NCBI RefSeq assembly: GCF_019297835.1
Contig: NZ_CP079203.1
Span: 62,001-126,000 of the forward strand
Reading direction: 5' to 3'
DNA from: Sphingomonas sanguinis
GTDB taxonomy: Bacteria > Pseudomonadota > Alphaproteobacteria > Sphingomonadales > Sphingomonadaceae
Length of the DNA: 64,000 nucleotides
The position numbers were made by a program, and so were the translations under genes. The first letter of the stretch is position 1; each line of letters starts with the position of its first letter. A model generated the notes under the pieces. The model made no database searches. It was not told the origin of the DNA and saw only the letters and a list, made by a program, of their open reading frames with translations. Shown here piece after piece: positions 426-63,897 of this stretch.

Positions 426-485
426 CTGAACGAATGATAGGTTTCGGGAAGTAGGCAGGGTGGCCTGAACGGCCGCAGTTGGGTC
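426..485 (+). repeat. 60-bp dispersed intergenic repeat, copy 1
   Basis: Starts CTGAACGAATG, has TTCGGGAAG near base 18 and ends TTGGGTC, matching the ends and 60-bp length of the other copies. The middle differs and contains GGCC-tgaac-GGCC, a small hairpin. It overlaps the last two bases of the convergent TetR gene. Confidence 0.7.
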
Positions 486-1119
486 AGGCCGTACCTATCA
501 GTGGTGTGCCTTCAAGCGCGGCAAGCGTGCCGGTAACGCCTCGGTCGATGATGACCAAGAATACACGCTTCGCGGCCTGAACGTCGCCCGTACGGCTGAG
601 CTCGGCGTGCGCGCGAAGGAACGCCGTGCTCCACGCCGAGGCGATCAGCCCAGCGGCCAAATGTGCGAGGGCATTATCGTCCCCGTCATGATGCTCTTCC
701 TGGAAGAGGGCGGCCAGATCTTGAACGAAATGGTCGCGCATCTGGCGTCCGCGCGCCTTCAACGTCTCGCTGGCCAGGGCCGTCTCGACGAAGGCCTGCG
801 TATGTTCAAACAACGGAAAGGCCTCGGACGGCTGTTCGATCATCTGGTGGGCCAGTGCGCCCAGCGCTTCGATCGGCGAGGTTCCTGACGGGCGCGAACG
901 GATTGTGTCGAACGCCAGATTGCGCGCTTCCTCTTCTCGGTCGAAGAACATGTCCTCCTTGCGCGGAAAGTGATTGAACACCGTCATGCGTCCGACATCG
1001 GCAGCGTTCGCGATCTCGTCGATCGTCACCTGATCGAACCCACGATCCATGAAGAGGCGGGTCGCAACGTCGGATATGGCTTGGCGGGTCGCAAGGCGCT
1101 TCCGGGTCCGTCGATCCAT
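484..1119 (-). CDS. TetR-family transcriptional regulator
   Basis: A 211-residue TetR/AcrR repressor. The N-terminal helix-turn-helix spans about residues 8-55 (AISDVATRLFMDRGFDQVTI, then DEIANAADVGRMTVFNHFPRKED), followed by an all-helical ligand domain. The frame opens upstream at 1182, but the start at 1119 is preferred because AAGGA lies 7 bases ahead of it and the longer form would run through the promoter palindrome at 1152-1164. It is divergent from the FAD monooxygenase at 1198, which it probably represses until an inducer binds. The inducer is unknown. Confidence 0.88.
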   Translation of the reverse strand: MDRRTRKRLATRQAISDVATRLFMDRGFDQVTIDEIANAADVGRMTVFNHFPRKEDMFFDREEEARNLAFDTIRSRPSGTSPIEALGALAHQMIEQPSEAFPLFEHTQAFVETALASETLKARGRQMRDHFVQDLAALFQEEHHDGDDNALAHLAAGLIASAWSTAFLRAHAELSRTGDVQAAKRVFLVIIDRGVTGTLAALEGTPLIGTA

Positions 1120-1151
1120 CCGAGCATCCTTTGCTGTATTGCTCATTAAAT

Positions 1152-1164
1152 TGTACCCGGTATA
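1152..1164. promoter_or_regulatory. Candidate TetR operator
   Basis: TGTACC-C-GGTATA is an imperfect palindrome (T.TACC.GGTA.A) between the divergent TetR and FAD-monooxygenase genes, 34 bases before the ATG at 1198. Position and symmetry fit a repressor site covering both promoters. Binding is inferred. Confidence 0.5.
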
Positions 1165-1197
1165 TATTGATGTCATATCCATTTTGGAGATGCCCTC

Positions 1198-2358
1198 ATG
1201 GTTCCGTCAACCCGCGACGCGCTTAACTCTCGTTCTGACCACGGTGCCGTCCTCATCAGCGGTGCAAGCTTTGCCGGTTTAGCCACCGCCTATGGGTTGA
1301 GGCGGCTTGGCTATCGGGTCATCATCATTGAGGCGGCACCGGGGTTGCGACGTGGTGGCACACCCGTCGACATCGAAGGTGAGACGATCGATATCTTGAA
1401 GAGGATGGGCCTCATCGACCATGTCAGGGCCAAGGCGCTGCCGTCTCGCCGGTTTGCGTTCAAGAATGCGGATGATTCCACTCTGGGTTCGATGGGAGTT
1501 GGAGGCGATCAAGCCTCGGAGGTAAGGTACGAAATCCATCGCGATGACCTGCTGGACATCTTGTTCAATGCGGTGGCGGACGATGTCGAGCTGCTGTTCG
1601 GCCGGTCGATCACGGGGCTCGTCGAGCGCGCGGACGGGGTAGCGGTGACCCTAGACAACGGCGAGCGGCGTGACGTCGCCTTGGTCGTCGGGTGCGACGG
1701 CAACCGGTCGAATACGCGGCGGCTGGTATTCGGCGGTGGCGATCAGTTCACCCATTTCATGGGCGGGTATTTCTTTCTGAAAGTCGTGCCGGAGACCGGG
1801 TTGCTTCCCGCCGATACGACGGAGGTTTTCCGGACACCCGGGCGGATGGCGATGCTCAACGGCTACGATGATCGTACGGACATCGGCTTCGGTTTCCGGA
1901 CGGAGAACGAGATCGCCTATGATTATCGCGATCGGGCGCAGCAGCGGCGGTTGATCGAGGACCAGGTCGGCGATCTCGGCTGGAAGGTGCCGGCCATGCT
2001 CGCGGCCGTTGCTGGAGACGACGACTTCTATTTCGACAGGATCAGTCAGATCCGAATGCCGTGCTGGTCTCGCGGACGGGTCGTGCTGGTAGGGGATGCT
2101 GGGTATTGCGTCTCGCCGCTCGCCGGCCTCGGCGGCTCGATGGCCATCATCGGCGCCGGTCGCCTGGCGGCCGCATTGGAGCGCTATCGCGACGATCATG
2201 CATCTGCGTTCCGTCACTATGAGGACGGGTTGCGTCCGTTCGTCGAGCAGATACAGGAGCGGGCGGCCAGCGACGGCATGTCGACCATGTGTCCGGCGGA
2301 CGAGGATGAGCTTGCCGAGCGTAACCGAGAGATCGCCGCAGGCGATATGGGTTGGTAG
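1198..2358 (+). CDS. FAD-dependent monooxygenase (PHBH/TetX-like group)
   Basis: A 386-residue class A flavoprotein hydroxylase that would use NAD(P)H and O2 to hydroxylate a small, probably aromatic, substrate. The Rossmann dinucleotide motif is at residues 20-46 (SGASFAGLATAYGLRRLGY, ending in a beta strand with the ribose-binding Glu). The DG motif (VVGCDGNRSN) is near 165 and the GD motif (VLVGDAGYCVSPLAGLGGS) near 295. GGAG lies 8 bases before the ATG. The divergent TetR neighbour suggests induction by the substrate or a related xenobiotic. Tetracycline-modifying enzymes belong to this fold, but the substrate cannot be read from sequence. Confidence 0.88.
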   Translation: MVPSTRDALNSRSDHGAVLISGASFAGLATAYGLRRLGYRVIIIEAAPGLRRGGTPVDIEGETIDILKRMGLIDHVRAKALPSRRFAFKNADDSTLGSMGVGGDQASEVRYEIHRDDLLDILFNAVADDVELLFGRSITGLVERADGVAVTLDNGERRDVALVVGCDGNRSNTRRLVFGGGDQFTHFMGGYFFLKVVPETGLLPADTTEVFRTPGRMAMLNGYDDRTDIGFGFRTENEIAYDYRDRAQQRRLIEDQVGDLGWKVPAMLAAVAGDDDFYFDRISQIRMPCWSRGRVVLVGDAGYCVSPLAGLGGSMAIIGAGRLAAALERYRDDHASAFRHYEDGLRPFVEQIQERAASDGMSTMCPADEDELAERNREIAAGDMGW

Positions 2359-2453
2359 CCTTCTCGCCAGGCGGCGTTGTTGCGGCCTGATCAGTCGCGC
2401 GAGTGATTGGCTCGAACGTTCATCTCCCGCGCATGAGGCTACCCGTTGGCAAC

Positions 2454-2515
2454 ATGAACGGACGGCAGAACATGGGAAGCTAAAAAAACAAGCCTCGAAT
2501 GACCGCAAATGGGTC
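2454..2515 (+). repeat. 60-bp dispersed repeat, copy 2 (62 bp)
   Basis: Starts ATGAACGGACGGCAGAA, contains TGGGAAGC and GAATGACCG, and ends ATGGGTC. A short inverted piece of the repeat start (GAACGTTCATCTCCCG at about 2413-2428) lies just upstream. The unit is in the 312-bp gap after the monooxygenase (2359-2670), which holds no gene. Confidence 0.75.
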
Positions 2516-2517
2516 TC

Positions 2518-5336: not shown

Positions 5337-5368
5337 TCACTGCCCATGATCCAAAAAGCTAAGTCGCT

Positions 5369-7993: not shown

Positions 7994-8056
7994 ATAAACG
8001 GATATCTGAAGTTGGGTTGGAAAAAGTGAATTTGAATGACTGCATGAGATTTGGTT
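7994..8056 (+). repeat. Degenerate copy of the 60-bp repeat beside integrase 1
   Basis: ATAAACGGATATCTGAAG aligns with the ATGAATGAATGTCTGAAG start of the copy at 58390. GTTGGGTTGG, GAATGACTGC and a TTTGGTT end follow in the expected order over 63 bp. It runs into the stop codon of the first recombinase gene (TTA at 8055-8057 on the plus strand). Confidence 0.5.
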
Positions 8057-8687
8057 AGACTTCCGTCCGTTCAGCCAGCTCCAAAGCGTCCTCCACGTCG
8101 ACGCCCAAATAGCGAATGGTGCTATCAATCTTTGCATGACCGAGGAGAATCTGAACGGCGCGGAGATTGCCGGTCGCCTTGTAGATAATTGAGGCCTTCG
8201 TTCGCCGAAGCGAGTGCGTCCCATAATCCTGCGGGGGTAGGCCGATGCCGATCACCCATTCCCGTACAAGACGGGCATATTGGCGTGTGCTCATGTGGGC
8301 CATGTAATCGTTGCGGCTCGGGAAGACGAAATCATTGAGCGTACCACCACGCCGTTCAAGCCATGCGCGTATTGTTTTACGGGCCGTATCCATAAGTTCA
8401 AACTGAACAGGACGCTTTGTCTTCTGTTGTACGATGATGGCGCGATCCCGCACACGCCCGCCAGAAACCAGATCGCCGATGCGGACTTTGACCACATCGC
8501 AGCCGCGTAATTTGCTATCGATAGCAAGGTCGAACAGCGCTCGATCACGTAATCGCCGGTGTTGATCAAGCCAAAAGCGAATGGCCCAAACTTGCTGCTG
8601 TTTAAGCGCCCGCTTGGCACCAACCAATCGGCCCTCATTCCAAGGGCGAAGTTCGTGGAAGGCGGGATCCATTGCCGAGTGACCCAT
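8055..8687 (-). CDS. Tyrosine recombinase/integrase, copy 1
   Basis: A 210-residue phage-integrase-family enzyme with the expected catalytic residues: Arg61 (KLRGCDVV), His158/Arg161 (THSLRR), His184 (LLGHAKID) and nucleophile Tyr193 (RYLGVD). Most of the N-terminal core-binding domain of larger integrases is missing. A longer frame opens at 8786, but the start at 8687 (MGHSAMDP) is preferred because it matches the start of copy 2 and both have GGAGA about 9-10 bases upstream. The protein differs from copy 2 (58453-59085) at about 15 of 210 positions. No phage or integron cassette genes are adjacent. Its stop codon abuts a degenerate 60-bp repeat. Confidence 0.9.
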   Translation of the reverse strand: MGHSAMDPAFHELRPWNEGRLVGAKRALKQQQVWAIRFWLDQHRRLRDRALFDLAIDSKLRGCDVVKVRIGDLVSGGRVRDRAIIVQQKTKRPVQFELMDTARKTIRAWLERRGGTLNDFVFPSRNDYMAHMSTRQYARLVREWVIGIGLPPQDYGTHSLRRTKASIIYKATGNLRAVQILLGHAKIDSTIRYLGVDVEDALELAERTEV

Positions 8688-9013
8688 CGCTTTTCTCCAT
8701 TGCGCCGAGTCGGTGCCAACATCATAATCGGCCGCCGTAAATGCGCGGTTTGGAAACGTGATGGATGCTCTGTCATCCAGACACATTAAGGATCGTCCGA
8801 TAATGTTGGCCGCAAAGGCGCTGGCCTATGTCACTTCCGAAAATTGGCATCGGAGGCGATTGTGGTTTTGTTGAAGCACCGAACTTGCGTATGGAAATGG
8901 TAGCCATCTGACGGTTGATGCCAAAGTCGCTCTTCGGATCGCCGAAAAGGTCCGATTGTGATCGCCCGCTAGGTGGAAGTTCGTTTTGCGTTTTAGCGAC
9001 AGGTGACAACCGG

Positions 9014-9526: not shown

Positions 9527-9640
9527 TTGCACAACCTGCTTCCTACAGCGGCCACAACGCGGTGATGAACAAGCGGCCGAAGTTGGGCAGGGGAAAAGGG
9601 ATCGCGAATGTCTGATCCTGGGTCTGTTCACCGTTAAAGT

Positions 9641-17711: not shown

Positions 17712-18647
17712 TCACGCGGGAACGCCCCGTGTTCGTAGCCAGTCGGCGTACCAGCCAGGCCAGGCGGCGGTCGGGGTGCCCGGATGGCCCATGCCGAAGC
17801 CATGACCACCGCTCGGCAGCACATGGCGCTCGACCGGTACGGCAGCAGCACGGCAAGCGTCCGCCAACATCGCGGTGTTGGCGATGTTTGAGATCGGATC
17901 GTCTTCGGCCTGAACCAGAAACATCGGAGGGCAGTGATCACGGACGTGCGTCTGCACCGACCACTCCGCAGCGTCGGCGAGCGACGGATGTCGCCCGATC
18001 AGTTGGACGCGGGTCGATGTATGATCGAAGGGCGGCTCGAGCGTCACGACAGGGTAGATGAGGGCCGCCTCGTCTACGGAGGCCGGTTGCGCATCGAGTG
18101 CATCAAGGGGGCGATAGGATGCGAAAGCAGACCGTGTCGCGGCAAGCCCGAGCAGATGCCCACCCGCTGAAAAGCCGAGCACGCCTACAGGTCCTTTCGT
18201 TTCCGCTCTGATCATCCGGATGGCGCGCTGCGCGTCCTGGAGCGGAGCGAGCGGGCCATCGCGCCAGCCCTCGCCGGGCAGACGATAGGTCAAGACATAG
18301 GCGGTGATGCCATGGGCCGTGAGCCAGCGTGCGGCCGGCATCGCCTCGGTCGCCATCTCGATCCGCTTATAGCCACCTCCAGCGGCGATCAGTACGGCAG
18401 CACCGTTCGGCCGAGAGGGCCGAAAAACCTCCAGCGTCGGGCTGGCGACGTTCGAAACCGCGCCCTTTGCGTCGATGACGATCGGGCCGGAGGGGCCACC
18501 ACCGCCCGGTGCGTCGCCAGGCCAAATCGAACGGCGCTCCGAAGGACTGGCTGCCGCAGTGCCTCGCCACGCGCCAGCGATGACAAGACCACCGAGCAGC
18601 CCTCCAGCGGCTTTGATCAAGCTTCTACGGTCGGTATCGAATATCAT
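17712..18647 (-). CDS. Tat-exported alpha/beta hydrolase (esterase)
   Basis: 311 residues. The N-terminus DRRSLIKAAGGLLGGLVIAG is a twin-arginine signal, so the folded enzyme would go to the periplasm. The hydrolase core has the nucleophile elbow GFSAGGH, acid residues in QAEDDPISN and His in SGGHGFGMGH. AAGGGYKRIE supplies the oxyanion region. It resembles the BD-FAE/pectin-acetylesterase group. ATG 18647 is preferred over GTG 18653 because GAGAGG is better spaced. A fragment of this gene (about 92% identical to 18301-18441) lies at 46328-46473. Confidence 0.85.
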   Translation of the reverse strand: MIFDTDRRSLIKAAGGLLGGLVIAGAWRGTAAASPSERRSIWPGDAPGGGGPSGPIVIDAKGAVSNVASPTLEVFRPSRPNGAAVLIAAGGGYKRIEMATEAMPAARWLTAHGITAYVLTYRLPGEGWRDGPLAPLQDAQRAIRMIRAETKGPVGVLGFSAGGHLLGLAATRSAFASYRPLDALDAQPASVDEAALIYPVVTLEPPFDHTSTRVQLIGRHPSLADAAEWSVQTHVRDHCPPMFLVQAEDDPISNIANTAMLADACRAAAVPVERHVLPSGGHGFGMGHPGTPTAAWPGWYADWLRTRGVPA

Positions 18648-18777: not shown

Positions 18778-19019
18778 ATGAACGAATGGCAGAAATCGGG
18801 AAGCGTCAATTCCGCCCGGAATGACCGCTTCTGGGTCTTCACAGCGGTTGAGCGAGTGATCGCGACATGGACGATCTTGGTCGCTCACCGCGTCGATTGC
18901 GTTCTCGAAACGCACTGCTTGGGATGGGGAGCGGCTTTCCCGTTACTCCGCCTTCGCCCTATAGTTTCGGGAAAATGCATTCGAATAGATTTCGGGAAAG
19001 TGGGCCCCGCAGGCGGCCG
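18778..19019 (+). repeat. Long composite repeat element, copy A
   Basis: The first 60 bases (18778-18837) are a clear 60-bp repeat unit. Bases 18965-19019 are a second conserved block (TTTCGGGAAAATGCATTC, then AGATTTCGGGAAAG and GGGCCCC). The block starts 187 bases after the unit start, as in the copies at 52298 and 55886. Within the unit, 18800-18813 and 18818-18831 form an imperfect 14-bp hairpin (GAAGCGTCAATTCC / GGAATGACCGCTTC). The gap 18654-19114 holds no gene. Confidence 0.72.
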
Positions 19020-19114
19020 TCAGCCCGATCGGCGCTGCGGGATTCCCGTCACGGGTTCCCAGTCGAGAGTGACGATCGGCATGGCATCACCATAGGATGT
19101 GTCCAGTTGGCGCT

Positions 19115-19585
19115 TTATGCCGTCATAACGCTTTCCCGTCCCAAGGTCTTCGAAAAGCAGACTGCCTCAGGCCGTCCAACATATTTGCCAAAGTTGGGAA
19201 TGCGATGGTAGCCGTTCCTCTCGTAGAACTTAACGGCGCGGCTGTTTACCAATCGTGTTTCCAGCCACAACTCGCGATAGCCATCGGCTTCTGCTCTCCT
19301 TTCAAGATCGTTTAGAATAGCTGATCCCACCCCTTTACTTGCCGGAATGGCGAACATCCGCTTTAACTCCGCCACGCCCTTCTGAAGCGGTCGATATGCC
19401 CCGCACCCCAGAGCGTTACCCTGTGCGTCATACGCCAGTACAAACGAGGCCCCGGCTCCCTCTACATCGTAGGGGTCGAATGACGATCTCCCGCTATCTC
19501 CGGTTATACCAGCCAGCGTGACCGAAAGTTGATCGAGTAGCTGTAGCGCCATCGGATCAGAGGGGTGGACCGGCTCAACGCGCAT
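19115..19585 (-). CDS. GNAT-family N-acetyltransferase
   Basis: 156 residues. The acetyl-CoA-binding region contains LKRMFAIPASKGVGSAILNDLERRA, where the usual R/Q-x-x-G-x-G/A loop reads SKGVGS. LETRLVNSRAVKFYERNGYHRI is the typical C-terminal GNAT strand-helix. The frame is open to 19927, but ATG 19585 (MRVEPVHPSD) has AAGGAG 9 bases upstream and matches the family's normal length. The substrate is unknown. Confidence 0.85.
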   Translation of the reverse strand: MRVEPVHPSDPMALQLLDQLSVTLAGITGDSGRSSFDPYDVEGAGASFVLAYDAQGNALGCGAYRPLQKGVAELKRMFAIPASKGVGSAILNDLERRAEADGYRELWLETRLVNSRAVKFYERNGYHRIPNFGKYVGRPEAVCFSKTLGRESVMTA

Positions 19586-19684
19586 TCGCAAAAGCTCCTT
19601 TGCAACATCAGAATGCTGCGCCAGCCGACAGGCGGCGCCCACATATTCCATTGCCTCTGCATTTTCGAAAAACCATCCCAAACG

Positions 19685-19729
19685 AGACGGCGCAGGCCGT
19701 CTTGTTGGTCGTTCCCAAACGGGAACGAC
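19685..19729 (-). terminator. Two hairpins after the ArsR gene
   Basis: Two perfect stems lie just past the ArsR stop codon: GTCGTTCCC-aaac-GGGAACGAC (19708-19729, 9 bp) and AGACGGC-gcag-GCCGTCT (19685-19702, 7 bp). They separate ArsR from the GNAT gene on the same strand and probably stop its transcript. Confidence 0.5.
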
Positions 19730-19737
19730 ACAGCCGG

Positions 19738-20451
19738 TTATTGTTCGGTTAGTTTGATACCGAAGTTGACGTTGAGCGCCAGCGCTCCGGCCCTCGTGAT
19801 CGAGATAATCCGCGAGCGATCGTTGCGTCGCATCCAGCCCTGTTCGATGCACGCATTCAGGAGGGCTGCACCGACCGTCCCGGCGATGTGCGGGCGGCGT
19901 TCGCTCCAATCGAGGCAGGGGCGGCAAAACAGCCTGCGCGCCGTCGTGCGGTTCAGTGCCGTATCGATATCAACACCGATCGATCGGAAGAACATGATTC
20001 CTTCGGCGGATAGCTCGCCTCCATCAGCCAGATCGGTGATGTAGCCTCGCTCACCCATGCGATCAGCGACAGCTACGGCGATGCTGCCAGCTAGATGGTC
20101 GTAGCAGGAGCGGGCGCGTCGCATTGCGGCATCGCGAGGGCCTGTCCTTACTTTGCGGTTTGCAAGGTTCGCGGGTTCGGCCGCGACCGCCATGATGCTT
20201 TCGATCATGGTGGCGACGGTCACCGAGGCGAGCCGATGATACCGGTGGCGTCCCTGCCGTTCGACCGCCAGCAGCCCCGCCTCCGTCATCCGCCCCAAGT
20301 GACTGCTCGCCGTCTGGGGGGTGATCCCCGCAACGTCGGCCAGCTCGGTCGCCGTCAGCGCGCGCCCGTCCATCAGCGTCACCAGCATCGCGCTTCGGGC
20401 AGGATCGCCGATCAGGGCGGCGATTTCGGCAATTCCGGTCGTAGTCAGCAT
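19738..20451 (-). CDS. ArsR-type (YdfF-like) winged-helix regulator
   Basis: 237 residues. An N-terminal ArsR wHTH (about 10-85; ALTATELADVAGITPQTASSHLGRM) is joined to a C-terminal domain containing CRPCLDWSERRPHIAG, typical of the long YdfF-like branch. The two Cys could act in metal or redox sensing. The gene is divergent from the NIPSNAP/ABM pair, an arrangement recalled as common for this branch, which it presumably represses. Confidence 0.85.
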   Translation of the reverse strand: MLTTTGIAEIAALIGDPARSAMLVTLMDGRALTATELADVAGITPQTASSHLGRMTEAGLLAVERQGRHRYHRLASVTVATMIESIMAVAAEPANLANRKVRTGPRDAAMRRARSCYDHLAGSIAVAVADRMGERGYITDLADGGELSAEGIMFFRSIGVDIDTALNRTTARRLFCRPCLDWSERRPHIAGTVGAALLNACIEQGWMRRNDRSRIISITRAGALALNVNFGIKLTEQ

Positions 20452-20589
20452 TTATCTCTCACCCGAAGCGGGTTTCGTTGCACACGTCCTCGCATATGCG
20501 GCTTCCGTAATGGTTCGATGCCGATCGAAGCATCGCCCAAAGCCCGCGATCTATGAAGGCCCGGTCACGGCAACACCGGAAGGCCATTC

Positions 20590-20919
20590 ATGATTACGTG
20601 TTTTATCCGCTATGAAATCGACCCCTTTCGTGTCGATGCGTTCGAGGAATATGCCTGCAACTGGGGGCAAGCAATCCCGCGTTGCGGGGCCGATCTGATC
20701 GGCTATTTCGCCCCTCATGAGGGGTCGGCGACCACAGCCTATGGCCTCTACAACATCGAAAACCTCGCCGCCTACGAGGGTTACCGTGCGCGACTGCGCG
20801 ATGATCCCCTTGGCCGAAGCAACTACGAGTTCGCGAAGCGGGAACGCTTCATCCTGCACGAGGATCGGATGTTCCTCAGACTTGCCTCGACGCCCCATGC
20901 GCCGCTGGTAAAACCATGA
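20590..20919 (+). CDS. NIPSNAP family protein
   Basis: 109 residues with a ferredoxin-like alpha+beta fold of the dimeric alpha/beta-barrel superfamily. The pattern [20 protein letters not shown], then [11 protein letters not shown] and [20 protein letters not shown] is typical of bacterial NIPSNAP proteins, whose function is poorly defined. Its last four bases overlap the start of the ABM gene (ATGA), so the two are translationally coupled. Confidence 0.87.
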
Positions 20920-21263: not shown

Positions 21264-21323
21264 GACAGTCGCCCCACACTGAAACACGTCTACCCTTCCC
21301 ATTTCCCCTGCCAGGGGAGGTTT

Positions 21324-21345
21324 CGGGAAGCCTAGCGGCTTCCCG
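21324..21345 (+). terminator. Strong hairpin after the NIPSNAP/ABM operon
   Basis: CGGGAAGCC-tagc-GGCTTCCCG, a perfect 9-bp stem 60 bases after the ABM stop. A smaller CCCCT-gcc-AGGGG hairpin (21306-21318) precedes it. There is no adjacent T run, so it may be an intrinsic terminator or another repeat-derived hairpin. Confidence 0.45.
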
Positions 21346-46166: not shown

Positions 46167-46330
46167 ATGTTTCGGTCCCCGGCCGCGGCGCTGGTCACGT
46201 GTGTCGTTGCGCCGGCCTCCGCCGAGCCGGAGGAAATCCGGGTCTATATGGACGAGATGAACGCGTCGTCGACATCCGCCTCGACACCCATGTCAACTAC
46301 CTCGCGACGGAGCGCTGGACGTTCGACTAG
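46167..46330 (+). pseudogene. N-terminal remnant of an outer-membrane protein gene
   Basis: ATG 46167 gives MFRSPAAALVTCVVAPASAE (a signal peptide) then PEEIRVYMDEMN. A frame change at about 46260 continues RVVDIRLDTHVNYLATERWT, FD and TAG 46328-46330. The pattern EEI.VYMDEMN...D.HVNY resembles the first residues of a family of beta-barrel outer-membrane proteins as I recall it. The rest of the gene is absent, and the sequence passes directly into a hydrolase fragment. Gene scrap with a frameshift. Confidence 0.5.
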
Positions 46331-46473
46331 GCGGTGATGCCATGGGCAATGAGCCAGCGTGCGGCCGGCATCGCCTCGATCGCCATCTCGATCCGCTTAT
46401 AGCCGCGTCGAGCGGCGATCAGCACGGCAGCACCGTTTGGTCGAGAGGGCCGGAAGACCTCCAGCGTCGGGCA
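46328..46473 (-). pseudogene. Fragment of the Tat-exported hydrolase gene
   Basis: These bases match the internal part of the hydrolase at 18298-18442. By eye about 130 of 141 aligned bases are identical, including CTCGATCCGCTTATAGCC and CACGGCAGCACCGTT. In the parent it covers the region just before the nucleophile elbow and encodes no complete domain. Homology starts at the TAG that ends the neighbouring remnant and stops abruptly after CTCCAGCGTCGGGC. The rest of the 46134-46834 gap holds only a 60-bp repeat. Confidence 0.88.
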
Positions 46474-46634
46474 GGGGCGGCGATGTGCGCGTGCCGGTTA
46501 TGGAGCGTTTTTCAAGCCGTTTTGCAGCTTTGTCTGCCGAAACATGTCAACAGAGAGACGGCCGCGCCGCGTTTCCATGAGTTCGCACCTTTCAACCGCC
46601 GAATTTGCATGCCCGAAACTGGGCATTTGCCGAC

Positions 46635-46693
46635 ATGAACGAATGGCGGAAGTTGGACACGCAGATAGTCGCGCGAATGACCGTTTCTGGGTC
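46635..46693 (+). repeat. 60-bp dispersed repeat, copy 6 (59 bp)
   Basis: ATGAACGAATGGCGGAAGTT at the left and GCGCGAATGACCG, TTTCTGGGTC at the right. The GGGAAG core reads TGGACAC. It lies 141 bases beyond the 3' end of the convergent S9 peptidase gene. Confidence 0.75.
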
Positions 46694-52297: not shown

Positions 52298-52532
52298 ATG
52301 AATGGATGTCTGAGGTTGGGGAGTGCGAAATGTCAGCTCAACGTCCACTTGTGGGTCTCCTCAGCCGTGAAGCGGCCGACGGCCGCATGACCCAACTCGG
52401 CCATTCCCGGCGCCCGTCGCTTTCCCAATATCCGCCTCTTTGGGAGGCTCGCGGCTTGCGATCTTTCCGTCTCCACTGCGCCGTTTGGGAAAAGGCATTC
52501 GGAAACAGATTTTCAGAAGCGGGGCCCTGGAG
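52298..52532 (+). repeat. Long composite repeat element, copy B
   Basis: A 60-bp unit (52298-52357, ATGAATGGATGTCTGAGG to TGTGGGTC) is followed by an inverted partial unit at about 52389-52427 (GACCCAACTCGGCCATTC, then GTCGCTTTCCCAAT). The second block at 52484-52532 reads TTTGGGAAAAGGCATTCGG, AAACAGATTTTCAG, GGGGCCC. The block begins 186 bases after the unit. The gap 52043-52596 shows no gene apart from this element. Confidence 0.72.
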
Positions 52533-54048: not shown

Positions 54049-54169
54049 GCCCTAAATCTCCGCGTATTATTTACATAACACACTGCGCCTGATCCTCCGG
54101 TGAGGCAAGCGGCTTTTCCGCTTCCGCTCATCCCGCGCCGCAATCCACAGATTTCCGTTTCACCATCCA

Positions 54170-55679
54170 GAGCGTGTGAAAAGTTGCGTCTGCGATTCCG
54201 CCGGGCCGCGGGTCGGCGTATGCTTTGGGCATGGCGTATATCGAGGGTCACGCGCGCGACCAGGCGCTGCTGCTGCCGGCATCGGTTGAGGATTACGTAT
54301 CGGCAGACAACCCAGTGCGCTTCATCGATGCCTTCGTCGACGATCTTGATCTCGGCGAGGCCGGTTTCCATCGTTCGCAGCCGAAGGCCACCGGACGGCC
54401 GGGCTATCACCCGGGCGACATGCTGAAGCTGTACCTGTACGGCTATCTCAACCGAACGCGGTCGAGCCGGCGCCTGGAAGCCGAGGCGACACGCAATCTC
54501 GAGCTGATCTGGCTGCTGCGCGGGCTGCGGCCCGACTTCAAGACCATCGCCGACTTCCGCCGTGACAACCGCTCCGCGTTCAAGGCGGTGTTCCGCGCGT
54601 TCGTGGTGCTATGTCGCAAGCTCGACCTGTTCGGGCGCGAGCTGCTGGCGGTGGATGGCACGCGGCTGAAGGCGGTGAACAGCCGGACGCGCAACTTCAC
54701 GAAGGCCAAGCTAGACAAGTATATCAGGTCCGCTGACGAGCGGCTCGAGAAGTATCTCGCACAGCTCGATGATGCCGACCGCGGCGAGGAGGCAGGCACA
54801 ACCAGACGGAGCGATGCACTGGCGGCGAAGATCGTGAAGGTGCGCGAACAGCGTCAGGTCAACCAGGCGCTGCTGGAACAGCTGAAGGCCAGCGGCGAGA
54901 GCCAGATTTCGCTCACCGACCCGGACGCTCGCGCGATGGCGGCGCATCCCAAGGTCGGCGTCGGCTACAACGCGCAGGTCGCGGTCGATGCAAAGCACAA
55001 GCTGATCGTCGAACAGCATGTCACCAACGCGGGCAGCGATCTGGGTTTCCTGGCTGAGACAGCCGGCGCGGCGAAGGACCTTCTCGACGTCGACCGGATC
55101 GATGTGGTCGCCGACATGGGGTATTACATGGGCGAGGACATCGCCGCGTGCGAGCGAGCCGGCATCACGCCCTATGTCGCCCGCCCCCAGCGCGGCACGG
55201 CCGTTGGCGACGGGCGCTTTCCCAAGGAGCGGTTCCGCTATGATGAAGCCGCGGATTGCTACCACTGCCCCGGCGACCAGCGCCTTGATACACGGTACCG
55301 ATGGCTTCAGGGCGGTCACATCATCGTGCAGTATTCAAACCCGCGCGCTTGTGACGGATGCGAACTCAAGGCGCAGTGCGCCCGTGGAAACTTCCGTCGC
55401 ATCACGCGGTGGGAAGGCGAGGCGGTGCTCGATCGCATGGCGATACGCCTCGCCGCCCGGCCCGACATTCTCGACATCCGGCGCGAGACGGTCGAGCACC
55501 CTTTCGGTTCGATCAAGCAATGGATGAACCAGGGCACTTTCCTGATGCGCGGTCTCGACAAGGTGCGGGCCGAATTCAGTCTGACGGCGTTTGCCTATAA
55601 CCTGAGACGGGCGATAAACCTAGTCGGCGTACAGGGATTGATCCGGGCCTTGCAAACCTGATCCGACGTTCAAACGCTC
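54170..55679 (+). mobile_element. IS1182-family insertion sequence
   Basis: About 1.5 kb around one transposase gene. The proposed ends GAGCGTGTGAA (54170-54180) and TTCAAACGCTC (55669-55679) are short imperfect inverted repeats. They were found by eye and may extend further, and no target duplication was seen. The element appears complete. It lies between the serine hydrolase and long-repeat copy C. Confidence 0.7.
54231..55661 (+). CDS. IS1182-family transposase
   Basis: 476 residues. The N-terminal DUF772-type domain has NPVRFIDAFVDDLDLGEAGF, PGYHPGDMLKLYLYGYLN and RPDFKTIADFRRDN. A DDE core follows (LLAVDGTRLKAVNS, VADMGYYMGEDIAACE), with a Cys-rich DDE_Tnp_1_6 region (CDGCELKAQCARGNFRRI) and RRETVEHPFGSIKQWMNQGT near the C-terminus with the final Glu. 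All motifs are intact. ATG 54231 is preferred to 54225. Confidence 0.93.
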   Translation: MAYIEGHARDQALLLPASVEDYVSADNPVRFIDAFVDDLDLGEAGFHRSQPKATGRPGYHPGDMLKLYLYGYLNRTRSSRRLEAEATRNLELIWLLRGLRPDFKTIADFRRDNRSAFKAVFRAFVVLCRKLDLFGRELLAVDGTRLKAVNSRTRNFTKAKLDKYIRSADERLEKYLAQLDDADRGEEAGTTRRSDALAAKIVKVREQRQVNQALLEQLKASGESQISLTDPDARAMAAHPKVGVGYNAQVAVDAKHKLIVEQHVTNAGSDLGFLAETAGAAKDLLDVDRIDVVADMGYYMGEDIAACERAGITPYVARPQRGTAVGDGRFPKERFRYDEAADCYHCPGDQRLDTRYRWLQGGHIIVQYSNPRACDGCELKAQCARGNFRRITRWEGEAVLDRMAIRLAARPDILDIRRETVEHPFGSIKQWMNQGTFLMRGLDKVRAEFSLTAFAYNLRRAINLVGVQGLIRALQT

Positions 55680-55885
55680 CCCGGCCGTCGCCCGCAGCCG
55701 ATGGCCGCCCTTCCGGCGACACTGTGCCACCCATAAAAATCAGCCAACATCCTGACGTTCATTCAGCGGATCCCAAGCGTGGCATCAGCCAACAGCGAGT
55801 TTCCGCACAGTCTGCATCGTTCTCGGGAAGAGGGGGTGTGGCTGCCAAAGGCTCATGCCTGCCTGGGCTGGCTGTAGCTGTTGAG

Positions 55886-56118
55886 ATGAACGAATGGCTG
55901 AATGTGGGAAGGCGAAAGTAAGCCGCGGGTGACCGGAACTGGGTCGTCATGACTGAAGGGCAGGGCGGCCGCTAACGCCCAAACTTGGCCGCTCAGGCGG
56001 GCCATCGCTCTTCCCGAAAGCGGCCATTTGTTTAACCCCACCATTCCTGTTTCCCCATGCTCGAAAGCCAATTTCGGGAAATAGCAATCGGGAACAGATT
56101 TTGGGAAAGCTGATGCTC
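55886..56118 (+). repeat. Long composite repeat element, copy C
   Basis: A 60-bp unit (55886-55945, ATGAACGAATGGCTGAA to AACTGGGTC), then an inverted partial unit near 55978-56016 (CCCAAACTTGGCCGCTC, TCGCTCTTCCCGA). The second block at 56072-56118 reads TTTCGGGAAATAGCAATCGG, GAACAGATTTTGGGAAAG. Internal spacings (121 and 186 bases) equal those of copy B. The rest of 55680-56194 holds no gene. Confidence 0.72.
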
Positions 56119-56194
56119 CGGTCGCCTCTCGGCGCTATCAGCAGAGCCACCTCCCCGCTGTGGGTTCGTTTGTGGGAATGCCTATGTTTGCGCG

Positions 56195-56776
56195 TCAGAT
56201 GGGTTTGACCGCCTCGTAGTAGTTGTTCCCGCCTTCGTCGGATCGGCAGTCGTCTAACCGCAGCCCAACGCTAGTAAGGTGCGCAGCATAGGCATCCGCC
56301 CCCAGCGACATAGACGCACGGCCCGTTAGCGTATCCTTCCAACGGCAGACCTCGCGCGGGGCGCTGAACAGGAATTGTCCGCCGGGTTCCAGCACGTTGG
56401 CAACGCTATTAAGAAGTTTCCGCTGGTCACCCTTGCCAAGCAGAAAGATAAGCCCGATCGAGACCACGCCAACAAAGGTTCTGTCGAAAAAGGAGCTGTT
56501 CTGAGCCGCTTCGCACACAGCAGGCATGTCGGGAAGGTTTTGCCGGTATGCCGAAATCAACGAAGGCGATGCATCGACGCCCCATACTGAAAAACCGTCG
56601 TTCACCAGCCATTGGGCGATTGGCACGCCGGAGCCGCACCCAATGTCCAAGATTGCAGCCGACCGGGGCAGGCGATCTTTCGCCCACGATCGAACCAACG
56701 CCGTGCCGACCTGCGAGCGAATGGCCACAAACTGGTCTGAGACTGCCTCCCAGCCAGTGGATTGGTCCGTCGTCAT
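56195..56776 (-). CDS. Class I SAM-dependent methyltransferase
   Basis: 193 residues. Motif I is AAILDIGCGSGVPIAQWL (about 41-58), the acidic end of strand 2 is FSVWGVDASPSLI, and motif post-I/II is GVVSIGLIFLLGKGDQRKLL followed by LEPGGQFLFSAPREV. It resembles the small Methyltransf_11/25 group acting on small molecules. The substrate is unknown and the gene stands alone. Confidence 0.88.
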   Translation of the reverse strand: MTTDQSTGWEAVSDQFVAIRSQVGTALVRSWAKDRLPRSAAILDIGCGSGVPIAQWLVNDGFSVWGVDASPSLISAYRQNLPDMPAVCEAAQNSSFFDRTFVGVVSIGLIFLLGKGDQRKLLNSVANVLEPGGQFLFSAPREVCRWKDTLTGRASMSLGADAYAAHLTSVGLRLDDCRSDEGGNNYYEAVKPI

Positions 56777-56942
56777 CCTTCACCTCGCGATGGTCGCTCT
56801 TCTAGCAGGTTAGGCAACAGCGTGCACGTTTCCCATTTAACCATCCCTTGCAGGACAAACGGCGCGACCGGTCCTCAGTGTTGGCCCTCATCGATAGAAG
56901 CCATAGGTTGGCTCGATGGCTAAACCATAGGAAGGGGCGTCA

Positions 56943-58283
56943 GTGATCCGCAGAATTTTGGCACCATTGTTGGCCGGAACCACTCTGGGGTTACTGTGCA
57001 GCCCTGCGCTCGCCGCCAACAGGCCTGGCGATGGATTTGAAGTGGCGAGCTACAGGCTCGCGCTTACCCCTGACATCCAGAACAGGACCGTCGCAGGGCG
57101 TGAGGCGATCACGCTGCGCGCAACGGTGGATGGCGTCCGGCGCCTGAACTTCACCGCCAATGCTCTTGCCATCGACAGCGCAACCCTCGATGGCGTGGCG
57201 CTCGCCCACACCGTGGAAGGCGATGTGCTGGGCTTCGACCTGCCCCGGCCGCTTCGGCGCGGACTCACCGTGAAGCTCGAATTGTCCTATCATGGCCGCC
57301 CCGCACGTGGGTTCGCGGGCTCGGCGACAACGCTCTACACCAGCTATTTCGCATGCGACTGGATGGTCTGTTCCCAGAACAAGTTCGGCGAGAAGGCGGC
57401 CTTCTCGCTTGATCTGCGTGTCCCGCGCGGGATGACCAGCCTGTCTGTTGGCCGCATGATGGCGCGGCGACCGGGACCGGACGGCAGTGAGATCCATTGC
57501 TGGAAAGCTCCCCGGCCCTACTCGGCCTATCTTTACGGCTTCGCGGTGGGTCGGTTCACGCGGGTCAGCGAACGGGCCGGATCGAAAAGGCTCACCTATT
57601 TGAGCGACACTGCCGACGGGGGCGAGCTGAAACGACGCTTGGCAGGGACAAGGGAGATGGTCGCCTTTCTGTCCACCAAGGCCGGCATGCCGCTTCCTGT
57701 CGCCGACTACAGCCAGCTTCTGGTCGAAGGCGATGAGGCGCAGGAGGCGGCGACATACTCCGTCCTCGGCACCGATGCGTTGCCGGCGAAGCCAGATGAT
57801 CCGTCGGAGGATTGGGCCATCGTGCACGAACTCACCCATCAATGGTGGGGCAATCTCGTAACGTGCGAGACGCTCAAGGATTTCTGGCTGAACGAAGGTA
57901 TCACGACCTTCATGACGGCTGTGTGGAAGGAGCACCGCTACGGCCGCGTCGCCTACAATGCCGAACTCGATGTCGCCAGGAGCCGGCTTGAAAAGGCGCA
58001 GGCGATGGGCTTCGACAAGCCGCTGGCCTGGGATGGCAGCTACCCGACATTGGGCGTCCGGCGCGCGATCCAGTACAGCAAGGGCGCGCTGTTCATGGCG
58101 CAGCTGCGAGTTACGCTCGGCGATGCCGCGTTCTGGTCTGGCCTGCGTCGCTACACCCGTGACCGTGCGGGCGGGACGGTTACGAGTATTGATCTGGAGC
58201 GAGCGATGGAGGCGTCGAGCGGCCGGGACTTGCGCCCGCTGTTTGCCGAATGGGTGTTCGGTGATGGCCCTTCCGCTCGGTAA
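56943..58283 (+). CDS. M1-family metallopeptidase, short form
   Basis: 446 residues, about half of a standard M1 aminopeptidase, and lacking the long C-terminal helical domain. A signal peptide ends at SPALAAN, followed by an N-terminal beta saddle (about 30-210). The catalytic domain has HELTHQWW (zinc His295/His299, Glu296) and NEGITTF (Glu318). The GAMEN position reads EAQEAATYS, so the exopeptidase Glu motif is missing or altered. The start is GTG 56943 with GGAAGGGG nearby. Likely a periplasmic peptidase of changed specificity. Confidence 0.85.
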   Translation: MIRRILAPLLAGTTLGLLCSPALAANRPGDGFEVASYRLALTPDIQNRTVAGREAITLRATVDGVRRLNFTANALAIDSATLDGVALAHTVEGDVLGFDLPRPLRRGLTVKLELSYHGRPARGFAGSATTLYTSYFACDWMVCSQNKFGEKAAFSLDLRVPRGMTSLSVGRMMARRPGPDGSEIHCWKAPRPYSAYLYGFAVGRFTRVSERAGSKRLTYLSDTADGGELKRRLAGTREMVAFLSTKAGMPLPVADYSQLLVEGDEAQEAATYSVLGTDALPAKPDDPSEDWAIVHELTHQWWGNLVTCETLKDFWLNEGITTFMTAVWKEHRYGRVAYNAELDVARSRLEKAQAMGFDKPLAWDGSYPTLGVRRAIQYSKGALFMAQLRVTLGDAAFWSGLRRYTRDRAGGTVTSIDLERAMEASSGRDLRPLFAEWVFGDGPSAR

Positions 58284-58389
58284 CGGGAATAGCCTGTCCC
58301 GTGATGTTTCCCGTATCTCGATCATTTTCGGGACTGCTAACGGCCGCTCGTCTCGCGATGATGCTGGCTGCACGACCCCCGCTCAGAAC

Positions 58390-58449
58390 ATGAATGAATG
58401 TCTGAAGTCGGGAAATCACGAAGATGGCGCGAATGACCGGATGTGGGTC
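58390..58449 (+). repeat. 60-bp dispersed repeat beside integrase 2
   Basis: ATGAATGAATGTCTGAAGTC, GGGAAATCACG, then GCGAATGACCGGATGTGGGT and C, 60 bases. It ends three bases before the stop codon (TCA, 58453-58455 on the plus strand) of the second recombinase. The two internal modules GAATGTCTGAAGTCGGG and GAATGACCGGATGTGGG are especially clear here. Confidence 0.8.
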
Positions 58450-58452
58450 GGC

Positions 58453-59085
58453 TCAGACCTCAGTGCGTTCGGCCAGTTCCAAAGCGTCTTCAACGTCAAC
58501 GCCCAAGTAGCGCACCGTGCTGTCGATCTTGGCATGGCCGAGGAGAATCTGAACGGCGCGAAGATTGCCGGTCGCCTTGTAGATGATCGATGCTTTCGTG
58601 CGCCGAAGCGAGTGTGTGCCATAATCTTGAGCTGGAAGGCCGATGCCGACCATCCATTCGTGTACGAGGCGGGCATATTGCCGGGTGCTCATATGGGCCA
58701 TATAGTCGTTTCGGCTCGGAAAGACGAAGTCGTTCAGTGTCCCGCCACGACGCTCCAGCCATGCCCGCATCGTCTTGCGTGCCGTGCCCATCAGTTCGAA
58801 CTGGACTGGCCGTCTGGTCTTCTGCTGAACCACGATGGCTCGGTCACGGACGCGCCCGCCAGAAACTACATCTCCGATCCGCACCCTGACCACGTCGCAG
58901 CCGCGCAGCTTGCTGTCGATGGCGAAGTCGAACAACGCGCGGTCGCGCAGTCGTTTATGCTGGTCGAGCCAGAAGCGAATAGCCCATACCTGTTGCTGTT
59001 TCAGAGCGCGCTTCGCACCGATCAGCCGGCCCTCATTCCAAGGCCGAAGTTCGTGAAAGGCAGGGTCCATCGACGAATGACCCAT
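58453..59085 (-). CDS. Tyrosine recombinase/integrase, copy 2
   Basis: 210 residues, the same length as the copy at 8055-8687 and differing at about 15 positions. Catalytic residues Arg61, His158, Arg161, His184 and Tyr193 are all kept. GGAG lies 7 bases before ATG. It stands between an M1 peptidase and a P450 gene with no phage genes. Two intact copies 50 kb apart suggest that the gene is mobile, or part of a mobile unit, and under selection to stay functional. Confidence 0.9.
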   Translation of the reverse strand: MGHSSMDPAFHELRPWNEGRLIGAKRALKQQQVWAIRFWLDQHKRLRDRALFDFAIDSKLRGCDVVRVRIGDVVSGGRVRDRAIVVQQKTRRPVQFELMGTARKTMRAWLERRGGTLNDFVFPSRNDYMAHMSTRQYARLVHEWMVGIGLPAQDYGTHSLRRTKASIIYKATGNLRAVQILLGHAKIDSTVRYLGVDVEDALELAERTEV

Positions 59086-59177
59086 TGATCATCTCCATCG
59101 GGCCAAATTGCCAAAGGAGCTTACGCAGGCGGGGTAAACCGATCGTTCGGAAACGTGGTTGATTGGCCGGTGGTCAT

Positions 59178-59240
59178 GCTGAACGAGCGGTCGGTTTCAG
59201 GCACCGCCTAGGAATTCTATGAACGACCGGGATTGGGGTA
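59178..59240 (+). repeat. Degenerate 60-bp repeat upstream of integrase 2
   Basis: CTGAACGAGCGG at the left, TTTCAGG in the middle, and GAACGACCGGGATTGGGGT at the right align with the repeat over about 62 bases, with many changes. With the copy at 58390 it brackets the recombinase gene in direct orientation. Confidence 0.45.
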
Positions 59241-62460: not shown

Positions 62461-62576
62461 CGTTCAGTGCCTCCAGATGATGATGGCGGCATCGGTGATC
62501 GACCCAGCGTTCGGACGATCGTGTCGACGACCCATCGGTTTGCTCCTCATCCGCTATGTAGGAGCCCCCGCAAGAT

Positions 62577-62598
62577 TTGGAAACCCATCGGTTTCCAA
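62577..62598. promoter_or_regulatory. TetR operator in the CYP102/TetR promoter
   Basis: TTGGAAACC-catc-GGTTTCCAA, perfect 9-base arms, 38 bases before the TetR ATG and 117 bases before the P450 start. ACCCATCGGTTT, covering its centre and one arm, is repeated at 62530-62541, giving a possible second half-site nearer the P450. Confidence 0.75.
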
Positions 62599-62635
62599 GG
62601 TGCTCTTTTTGTCGAAATAGGCGTATCGGACGAGA

Positions 62636-63247
62636 ATGAATGAAGCGCCTCTGACCGACCGTCTGCCGCCCCGCCTCTTGGAAAGCGCACGCGCGGAATT
62701 TGGCCGTCACGGTTTTGCCAAGGCCAATGTCGGGCGGATTGCGGCGGCCGCGATGATGTCGAAAAAGACGATCTATCGCCATGTGGCCTCGAAGGAGGCG
62801 TTGCTGTTCGCAGTGATCCGCTCTGTCGTTGGCGAACTGGCCGCGACGGCCGGACCGCCCAACCCCGATGCGCCGCCCCGGGAATGGCTGACTGGCTATC
62901 TGACGGCGTTCTGCCATCTCGCCTTCTCCGACGAAGGCATAACCTCCTACCGCCTCGTCATGAGCGAGGGCGCGCAGTTCCCCGATGTTGCTCGTATCTA
63001 TATCGAGACAATCAAGACCTATGGGATCAGGCCGCTCGCCAATCAACTTGCCGCCTATGCGTCGGCAGGACGGATGACCATTGACGACCCGGACGGCACC
63101 GCGATGATGCTGGTTTCGATGGTCGTGGCCGATATCTTGCGCGACGCCGCGCTTGGCTTGTCAGATCCACCGAATGATACCGGATTGCAGCGTGTTATTG
63201 AGCGTGCCGTCATACTTTTTCTTGGCGGTGTTCTCTTAGAGGCTTGA
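62636..63247 (+). CDS. TetR-family regulator of the CYP102-like gene
   Basis: 203 residues. The N-terminal HTH (about 12-58) has RLLESARAEFGRHGFAKANV and RIAAAAMMSKKTIYRHVASK, followed by a TetR_C-type helical domain (VSMVVADILRDAALGLSDPP). Divergent from the P450 gene, it is the probable repressor acting at 62577-62598 and released by a fatty acid or related hydrophobic inducer, as for Bm3R1/FatR. The regulatory link is inferred from layout. Confidence 0.88.
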   Translation: MNEAPLTDRLPPRLLESARAEFGRHGFAKANVGRIAAAAMMSKKTIYRHVASKEALLFAVIRSVVGELAATAGPPNPDAPPREWLTGYLTAFCHLAFSDEGITSYRLVMSEGAQFPDVARIYIETIKTYGIRPLANQLAAYASAGRMTIDDPDGTAMMLVSMVVADILRDAALGLSDPPNDTGLQRVIERAVILFLGGVLLEA

Positions 63248-63448
63248 TGACCTACACCACGCCCTGTTCAGGATCATATACAGCGTTCTCGAAAGGATCT
63301 GACTGGTTGCCCTTCTTGCTGGCTCTGGGAAATGGTCGGTGGAAGATCAGTCCGAACTTGTGCTACTCAAGCATGATAGCAGACGCAATACAGCCTCTGT
63401 GAACGTCAACCGACCCATATACTCCGTCCACTAACGCCTACGATGCAC

Positions 63449-63508
63449 GTGAACGAGCGTCTGGAATTGGGAAGCGGATAAGGCCTCCTGAATGTCCGGT
63501 AGTGGGCC
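63449..63508 (+). repeat. 60-bp dispersed repeat, copy 10
   Basis: GTGAACGAGCGTCTGGAATT, GGGAAGCGG, then TGAATGTCCGGTAGTGGGCC. The terminal GGGTC is changed to GGGCC, but length and order are kept (60 bases). Confidence 0.7.
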
Positions 63509-63837
63509 ATCGCCGTGGAAGGGCGGGGTGGCCGCGCTAGCTGAAAACAGACGCCCAGGGATTTGGCGTGAGCGGACGTTTAACGCCGTGCCCTCAGCCT
63601 CTTGCCTAACAAAAAAAGGGGCGGCGCAAGCCGACCCGAAGGCATTAGGAGAGGATGCCTGAAAGGCGTTATCATGCTGCAACTGCGAACAGCATTGTGC
63701 AAGCGCAAAGTGCGCCGAGGCGGAGGTTTTTTATTCCGATGCCGCAGCCTCCGCTTTCCCCAAAGGCGAATGGCTAGCTCGACCTATCTTCGGCGCTCTG
63801 TGGCTGCGCCAAGCGTTCGCTGCCATGAAATATTTAC

Positions 63838-63897
63838 ATGAACGAATGTCGGAAGTCGGGAAGCGGGTAGGGGGCGCTTGACGACCGCGATTGGGTC
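63838..63897 (+). repeat. 60-bp dispersed repeat, copy 11
   Basis: ATGAACGAATGTCGGAAGTC, GGGAAGCGGG, then GACGACCGCGATTGGGTC, exactly 60 bases. If this is the start of a long element, its second block would begin near base 64025, outside the window. Confidence 0.75.

Follow-up and report, generated by a model that had tools for sequence, protein, structure and literature searches.

Sixty-base-pair repeats as probable recombination sites of an integron-analogous cassette system in Sphingomonadaceae

The subject of this study is a family of 60-bp repeats in a 64,000-nucleotide stretch of the Sphingomonas sanguinis genome (termed the window; positions 62001-126000 of contig C1, or C1:62001-126000, in a genome of 4.37 Mb). 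The repeats lie between groups of genes, which we call cassettes, and the window also holds two small tyrosine recombinase genes, both on the minus strand (58453-59085 and 8055-8786). Cassette cargo in the window comprises genes for TetR and a flavin adenine dinucleotide (FAD) monooxygenase; a permease with two-component genes; IclR, a TonB receptor, a dehydrogenase and a major facilitator superfamily (MFS) protein; a pyrroloquinoline quinone (PQQ) dehydrogenase with an amidohydrolase; a peptidase with an ABC transporter and GntR; a P450-reductase fusion with TetR; and a beta-lactamase/esterase-family protein with an insertion sequence (IS).

The preliminary description of this DNA had reported 11 repeat copies. 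All of them check out, as do their lengths: nine are exactly 60 bp, the copy at 2454 is 62 bp and that at 46635 is 59 bp. A twelfth strong copy, at 9565-9624 (+), had been overlooked. When the window was scanned with a position weight matrix (PWM), these 12 strong copies scored 45-72 bits. The scores of the 11 noted copies are inflated because the PWM was trained on them; copy 9565, which was held out, scored 45.2. The next-best matches reach 24.4 (56035, minus), 23.3 (7994, plus) and 23.1 bits (59179, plus), and 10 first-order Markov shuffles of the window gave at most 13.7. For other searches we used R1, a covariance model without base pairs (sequence only) built on the 12 window copies. All 12 strong copies lie on the plus strand, as had been claimed, and R1 adds two weak minus-strand matches in the window (55978-56032, 24.2 bits; 52389-52436, 18.3 bits). 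The putative sites, cassettes and recombinase genes are as follows, with their basis in brackets.

426-485, plus: cassette-end site, ends TGGGTC (PWM, R1)
2454-2515, plus: cassette-end site, 62 bp (PWM, R1)
7994-8053, plus: degenerate site at recombinase 3' end, TGGGTC lost (PWM 23.3 bits, sequence)
8055-8786, minus: small tyrosine recombinase (PF00589), 243-amino-acid open reading frame (ORF); conserved 210-amino-acid part at 8058-8687
9565-9624, plus: cassette-end site (PWM, R1)
18778-18837, plus: cassette-end site, left border of a duplicated two-cassette block (alignment)
18838-21545, no strand: cassette of helix-turn-helix (HTH) regulator, NIPSNAP and ABM genes plus site (second copy at C1:4.24 Mb, with 1.3-kb insertion)
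21486-21545, plus: cassette-end site (PWM, R1)
21546-25236, no strand: cassette of PQQ dehydrogenase and amidohydrolase genes plus site (copy at C1:4.25 Mb; homology ends at TGGGTC)
25177-25236, plus: cassette-end site (PWM, alignment)
46635-46693, plus: cassette-end site, 59 bp (PWM, R1)
52298-52357, plus: cassette-end site (PWM, R1)
55886-55945, plus: cassette-end site (PWM, R1)
55946-58449, no strand: cassette of methyltransferase and M1 peptidase genes plus site (56829-58449 duplicated at C1:3.63 Mb)
58390-58449, plus: cassette-end site, 3 bp from recombinase stop codon (alignment)
58450-59239, no strand: candidate recombinase cassette of about 790 bp, gene antisense, own site at right (relative L161 shares following sequence)
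58453-59085, minus: 210-amino-acid tyrosine recombinase (PF00589, alignment)
59180-59239, plus: divergent attI-like site of the candidate recombinase cassette, here ending TGGGGT (R1, 15.4 bits)
63449-63508, plus: cassette-end site, ends TGGGCC (PWM, R1)
63838-63897, plus: cassette-end site (PWM, R1)

Site anatomy, direction and distribution

The consensus of 141 unique 60-bp matches is ATGAACGAATGGCnGAAnTTGGGAAGCGG..(variable)..TGAATGACCGnTTnTGGGTC, in which the final six bases are 99-100% conserved, a figure helped by counting only matches that reach both ends. The motif GA[AG][TC]GnCnG-n4-TGGG occurs twice per site, at positions 7-23 and 42-58, in direct orientation and 35 bp apart; by our reading of the consensus, the two copies resemble each other even in which positions vary. 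They are probably recombinase-binding sites, presumably on double-stranded DNA. The nearly fixed length that had been described holds for the 12 window copies. In the larger set, 141 of 284 unique R1 matches of at least 57 bp are 60 bp long, and this set says little on 59-bp copies because local model matches often omit the first base.

Earlier, the repeat had been judged a structural or protein-binding element and not a decayed transposon. The constrained length and probable protein binding survive, as does the exclusion of a decayed transposon; a structural element finds no support, since the sites have no fold. Folding energies of 120 sampled sites gave mean z values of -0.34 (top strand) and -0.28 (bottom strand), so that single copies fold no better than shuffles. 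An RNAalifold consensus of 150 sites contained 0 pairs, and that of the 12 window copies contained four weak pairs with no compensatory change. Rfam at the gathering threshold and a tRNA scan found nothing. Repetitive extragenic palindromic (REP) sequences, bacterial interspersed mosaic elements (BIMEs) and miniature inverted-repeat transposable elements (MITEs) were considered and rejected, there being no palindrome or terminal inverted repeats in the sites. Coding sequence was rejected also: the small ORFs beginning MNEW, already suspected to be spurious, probably are so, because an in-frame stop interrupts the copy at 25177 and the frame is shifted in the copies of 59 and 62 bp.

An intergenic position had been claimed as well, and by crude gene calling it is borne out by 151 of 155 sites in seven array regions (a site counts as inside a gene if it lies at least 40 bp from both gene ends). 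Genes converge on 60 of the 151 sites with called neighbours and diverge from 17, and the first gene after the site is antisense in 109 of 151. Window cassettes hold several genes each. From these orientations, a cassette seems to bring its own regulation, and a promoter rarely points at a site.

Sites are strongly polar. Among 166 matches in array regions of relatives, 163 run with their region, the exceptions scoring at most 17.3 bits, and in the window genome three of 69 rows run against theirs (24.2, 18.3 and 18.1 bits; some places are counted twice through overlap). The preliminary description had also asked whether orientation follows the replichore. It mostly does: in four genomes of one or two contigs, 111 of 119 sites point from origin to terminus (G000, 53 of 55; G008, 35 of 38; G021, 19 of 20; G010, four of six). 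Because sites within one array are not independent, the fair statistic is the count by cluster (gaps above 50 kb), in which 18 of 22 follow the replichore (one-sided binomial P of about 0.002). As the origin we took a cluster of parS-like motifs (at 2.67 Mb in the window genome), with the terminus opposite; an origin at dnaA was not adopted, that gene lying at 3.88 Mb and the parS-like motifs clustering at 2.67 Mb. The three exceptions in G008 are next to the estimated terminus, at 0.98 of the arm. One exception in G000, C1:2420723 (locus L041:10723-10782), is a strong site. Some 200 bp away is one copy of a 1322-bp repeat that looks like an IS by eye and occurs at three places in the regions read, and IS-mediated inversion could explain the reversed site.

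The window genome has at least 55 copies at an expectation value (E) of at most 1e-3 (R1; 150 of 2431 first-look candidates scored). They form clusters at 30-153 kb, 355-380 kb, 1.995-2.011 Mb, 2.512-2.521 Mb, 2.985-2.991 Mb, 3.597-3.667 Mb and 4.235-4.268 Mb, with isolated copies at 2.42 and 3.26 Mb. Within the window, 25237-46634 is a 21-kb stretch free of sites (G+C 0.64-0.67, with AcrB, histidine kinase and TonB receptor genes) that is probably backbone, or else a large unit whose inner sites were lost.

The suggestion that the family is widespread in sphingomonads proved right: 20 of 25 same-genus genomes, S. sanguinis included, match at E<=1e-3, 15 of the 20 having six or more copies and three a single weak match, and none of 16 genomes outside the family but in its order matches at this threshold. 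Across the family the spread is patchy: at E<=1e-6 with stricter filters, matches occur in 24 of 199 genomes, which belong to 16 of 96 genera. Large arrays occur in the relatives G009 (62 matches), G008 (38), G017 (26) and G021 (20). A BLAST search of plasmids with the site sequence returned two records, and viral contigs gave 0 matches to one exact site pattern.

Cassette borders and the adjoining recombinase

The unit delimited by these sites is seen most clearly in window segment 18838-25236, which recurs at C1:4.24-4.25 Mb with 99.6% identity over 5.7 kb, the second copy holding a 1.3-kb insertion that is by eye an IS. At the left border the two copies abut different sites, which are unlike up to TGGGTC, and the sequences are identical beyond. 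At the right border both have the same site, and they are identical through TGGGTC and unrelated after it. Five further homologous blocks show one or both TGGGTC borders. Segment 56829-58449 is 99.6% identical to a copy at C1:3.63 Mb and ends on the right at TGGGTC, its left end not being at a site; one array of G008 has two copies of a 1.05-kb cassette, with exact borders and unlike neighbours at both ends, and another G008 cassette is repeated in a second array with both borders at sites; two blocks shared by G008 and G017 have one site border each. We also compared 1.20 Mb of array regions containing 212 sites, which yielded 97 high-scoring segment pairs (HSPs) of at least 400 bp and at least 75% identity. 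Nine HSP ends fell within -12 to +5 of a site right end in both copies, versus 0 in each of 300 random site rotations.

Loci also differ by whole units. At L138 a cassette is followed directly by the recombinase, and at L120 a 97% relative of that cassette is followed by an extra 664-bp unit and then the recombinase; the recombinase DNA is 77% identical between the two. L126 and L150 show the same kind of whole-unit difference (3689 bp), as do L161 and the window genome (11.9 kb; recombinase genes 79% identical). These three pairs, read at base level out of 18 candidate pairs, have their borders at TGGGTC, except that the second border in the window genome is the degenerate site 7994-8053. As alignments they are consistent with whole-cassette gain or loss. 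Two of the pairs have recombinases too dissimilar to be close copies, so the evidence is of loci that differ by entire units and not of an insertion that can be dated.

The recombinase at 58453-59085 matches PF00589 with E 7e-20. Residues R61, K89, H158, R161, H184 and Y193, whose catalytic roles we assign from knowledge of the family, are invariant in seven aligned sequences. An AlphaFold2 model of moderate confidence (predicted local distance difference test, pLDDT, 72.6; five models, 51-73) consists of a catalytic domain and an unordered 24-residue N-terminus, and Foldseek matches it to Xer, Cre and lambda Int. The nearest solved structures are XerD 1a0p (E 2e-8, by sequence) and XerA 5hxy (E 3e-6, Foldseek). 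By its R-K-H-R-H-Y set and predicted fold the protein is a member of the tyrosine recombinase family; all NCBIfam models that it matches score below cut-off, XerC for instance at 58 bits versus 335.

A scan of species genomes found 58 recombinase loci, mostly in Sphingomonas, one in Sphingobium and a few elsewhere. Fifty are full-span (the match covers the protein and room is present; some have frame breaks), the eight partial matches being left out. An R1 site abuts the recombinase 3' end in 38 of the 50, its last base lying 3-14 positions past the stop codon, and four positions past it in 22 loci. In 45 of the 50, the 28 bases that follow the last codon contain TGGGTC, versus 0.7% of background 28-mers; in L163 it overlaps the stop. 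The L163 recombinase is 48% identical and also has a site at its 3' end, but the stretch contains stops. Of 128 sites in the 58 loci, 124 point the same way relative to the recombinase.

A divergent site lies about 150 bp upstream of the recombinase start (59180-59239 in the window); R1 detects such a site in 14 of 50 loci, and the motif locates one in 31 of 49. Among 20 loci, 97 pairs are at least 75% identical over the last 60 bp of this own site. Mean downstream identity is 0.28, and three of the 97 pairs also share the following sequence; without those three, identity drops from 1.0 at the final site base to 0.30, 0.26 and 0.27 over the three bases that follow. The site end was anchored on [TC]GGG, so that conservation before the end arises partly by construction and the drop after it does not. 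Together with the site at the 3' end of the gene, these alignments mark off the recombinase as a cassette in its own right, a unit of about 790 bp in which the gene is antisense to the sites and a divergent attI-like site stands at the right end.

Relatives of the recombinase occur in 181 plasmid records. Sites were looked for in nine of the 20 matches listed, and R1 sites near the gene were found only in two Sphingomonas plasmids, L167 (Sphingomonas insulae; both sides) and L168 (S. aliaeris; upstream only); such plasmids may carry the gene from strain to strain. In L170 the gene is preceded by a 13-bit match. In L171, L173 and L174 (Croceicoccus, Novosphingobium and Sphingobium plasmids; relatives 70-72% identical), the stop is followed by a terminator-like hairpin and then by stretches that are by eye site-like, in the opposite direction. 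These are possibly a sister site family; a plasmid BLAST search with the L171 stretch returned only itself.

Several other observations concern recombinases and cassette ends. Four equal-scoring recombinase genes lie in or near arrays at C1:143.6 kb, 3604.8 kb, 3660.3 kb and 4218.4 kb and match the IntI model on both sides and not in the middle; the one examined, L036, is part of an IS91-family element with a Y2 transposase. A 211-amino-acid PF00589 gene lies about 1 kb from a site in G010 (C1:200880-201329), and a 294-amino-acid frame in G008 (C2:1625843-1626301), 13 kb from a single site, matches the N-terminal half of the IntI model; neither abuts its site. About 80 bp before the site in window segment 58308-58449 are common (74-83%) to L049, L043, L038 and L042, with different followers, and mark a cassette-end subfamily. 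A 148-bp direct repeat, 92% identical, is found at 18298-18445 and 46328-46475, each copy shortly before a site. Finally, 54162-55830 is a 1.66-kb DDE-transposase IS, 99.7-99.9% identical to copies at C1:2.52 and 3.65 Mb.

Proposed mechanism and alternatives

We propose, with a probability of roughly 0.7, that Sphingomonadaceae have an integron-analogous cassette system, with an enzyme and a site of its own, and that the 60-bp repeats are its recombination sites. A cassette would consist of cargo, often several genes with their own regulators and in either direction, and one site at its right end. Cassettes would be joined head to tail into arrays in which nearly all sites point one way. Recombination would occur within or at the edge of the near-invariant TGGGTC that closes each site, and an incoming cassette would land right after the TGGGTC of a resident site, with its own site behind. 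The likely enzyme is the 210-amino-acid catalytic-domain tyrosine recombinase, which would itself travel as a cassette of about 790 bp. Comparison of sequences supports the unit borders, the direction, the recombinase association and the whole-cassette differences; the 210-amino-acid protein is the best candidate for the acting enzyme by position, and circular intermediates and the chemistry of the crossover are presumed.

Several results weigh against this proposal. No circular form was seen. Most HSP ends lie elsewhere, at IS copies and paralogous genes. Ends in both copies also occur at site left ends (seven, versus nine at right ends; within 5 bp, 106 HSPs of at least 250 bp), and the HSP test alone thus cannot place the crossover, which is placed by the base-level alignments. 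The left-end cases would be blocks that run through the conserved left site, a view with which the base-level alignments examined agree. In five of 50 loci the recombinase has no TGGGTC next to it, and seven of seven plasmid relatives (67-74% identical; hosts Methylobacterium, Sphingobium, Croceicoccus, Mesorhizobium and Novosphingobium) have no R1 site at the 3' end. Moreover, the site-rich genomes G008 (38 sites), G017 (26) and G021 (20) have no recombinase match at E<=1e-20, and neither the G008 arrays nor the main G021 arrays contain a PF00589 gene (a 420-amino-acid one lies 2 kb from a weak single site in G021). Another enzyme may act in these three genomes, or their arrays may have lost theirs.

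The first of these possibilities leads to the strongest alternative, which we consider unlikely but worth keeping in view: that cassettes do move via such sites, and the enzyme is host XerC/XerD or another tyrosine recombinase, with the 210-amino-acid protein a passenger or helper. The genomes with many sites and no such protein fit this explanation, as does the finding that G008 and G021 have four and five PF00589 genes (E<=1e-8), none in the main arrays. A passenger would nevertheless hardly be expected to keep a fixed short distance between gene and site in 38 of 50 loci and to have its own site subtype, and integron arrays without an integrase (clusters of attC sites lacking integrases, CALINs) are common too (PMC9668308).

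An explanation we regard as improbable is one-ended rolling-circle transposition of the IS91/ISCR/Helitron kind, in which the repeat would be a fixed right end that drags variable flanks along, and insertion into the single-stranded lagging template would produce the replichore bias. It accounts for both the fixed right end and the biased direction, and IS91-family copies are present in or near arrays of the window genome. It does not predict that most left borders read fall right after the preceding site (56829 being the exception) or that whole units differ between the same neighbours, and no transposase was regularly seen beside the sites, though no systematic scan was made.

Less probable again is that the sites bind a chromosome-organising or segregation protein, comparable to FtsK-orienting polar sequences (KOPS), matS or targets of nucleoid-associated proteins (NAPs), with block exchange incidental. 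The replichore direction (by sites and by clusters) and the two direct half-sites would suit such a protein, but the strong island clustering, the absence from five of 25 genus genomes and the borders at TGGGTC would not. RecA recombination between dispersed repeats, for which the direct repeats within arrays would provide substrates, is barely credible, since sites at swapped left borders share just the final 6-12 bp or so, too short for homologous recombination, and differ elsewhere, and the borders are constant to the base.

Comparison with known recombination systems

If the cassette reading is correct, whole metabolic operons would be stored and shuffled across Sphingomonadaceae, which would help to explain the gain and reordering of catabolic operons in sphingomonads. 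The 60-bp mark would let annotation pipelines delimit such cassettes. Our data suggest that these bacteria rearrange complete sets of metabolic genes by a route that is new to the literature: we found no description of such a sphingomonad system in the open-access literature, most subscription papers and all bioRxiv preprints being outside the scope of the search.

FimB/FimE-type invertases, of about 200 amino acids and without an N-terminal domain, resemble the recombinase in size and in the absence of that domain. They differ in that its match to NF007371 is weak (18 and 24 bits versus 222) and no inverted sites were seen. Among solved structures, the Xer proteins (XerC, XerD, XerA, XerH) are the closest relatives in sequence and fold; the enzyme here lacks the core-binding domain and is under the cut-offs for XerC and XerD. 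The p-dif modules of Acinetobacter plasmids, moved by XerC/XerD, are likewise discrete gene modules bounded by short sites with genes in any direction. The p-dif sites are about 28 bp, with inverted arms of about 11 bp around a 6-bp spacer, and alternate in direction, whereas the sites described here are 60-bp direct repeats that point one way.

Integrons, the textbook case of modular gene capture, offer the closest parallel, above all the sedentary chromosomal integrons and CALINs. In both systems one site stands at the cassette 3' end, arrays run head to tail in one direction, the crossover is at the right end of the site and clusters of sites occur without a recombinase. As in the intI-attI layout, the recombinase gene runs opposite to the sites of its array, and a site, here a candidate attI, precedes its start. 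The two systems also differ. The recombinase here is not IntI and has the catalytic domain only: both window genes score 19.2 bits with TIGR02249 (IntI) versus a cut-off of 265, and no gene exceeds the cut-off in five of five genomes searched, although none of 14 control genomes reached it either. Integron cassettes mostly consist of a single gene that lacks a promoter and is oriented like the site; those described here have several genes in both directions, with a median site spacing of 2.85 kb, and one of them is the recombinase. The sites here are conserved in sequence and have no fold, whereas attC sites are described in PMC9024848 as variable in sequence and conserved in structure.

Sedentary integrons also share the direction from origin to terminus. 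According to PMC11023631, they prefer the attC bottom strand on the leading-strand template, and their replichore direction is explained by folding of that strand. A replichore direction without a fold implies that selection on direction acts otherwise, or that the folding account is incomplete; the shared direction thus makes the attC-folding account of integron strand bias testable.

The system resembles an integron in how it works, but judged by the two defining components that were tested, IntI and a folding attC, it is not one. True integrons are reported to be very rare in Alphaproteobacteria, with six complete cases in Sphingobium and Agrobacterium (PMC9024848). The same logic with a different enzyme and a different site would mean that cassette capture evolved more than once. 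We lean, with less assurance than for the cassette reading itself, towards an independently evolved capture system, a 'second integron', with unfolded polar direct-repeat sites, a minimal catalytic-domain recombinase that, being a cassette, is able to spread by itself and a replichore direction reached by convergence.

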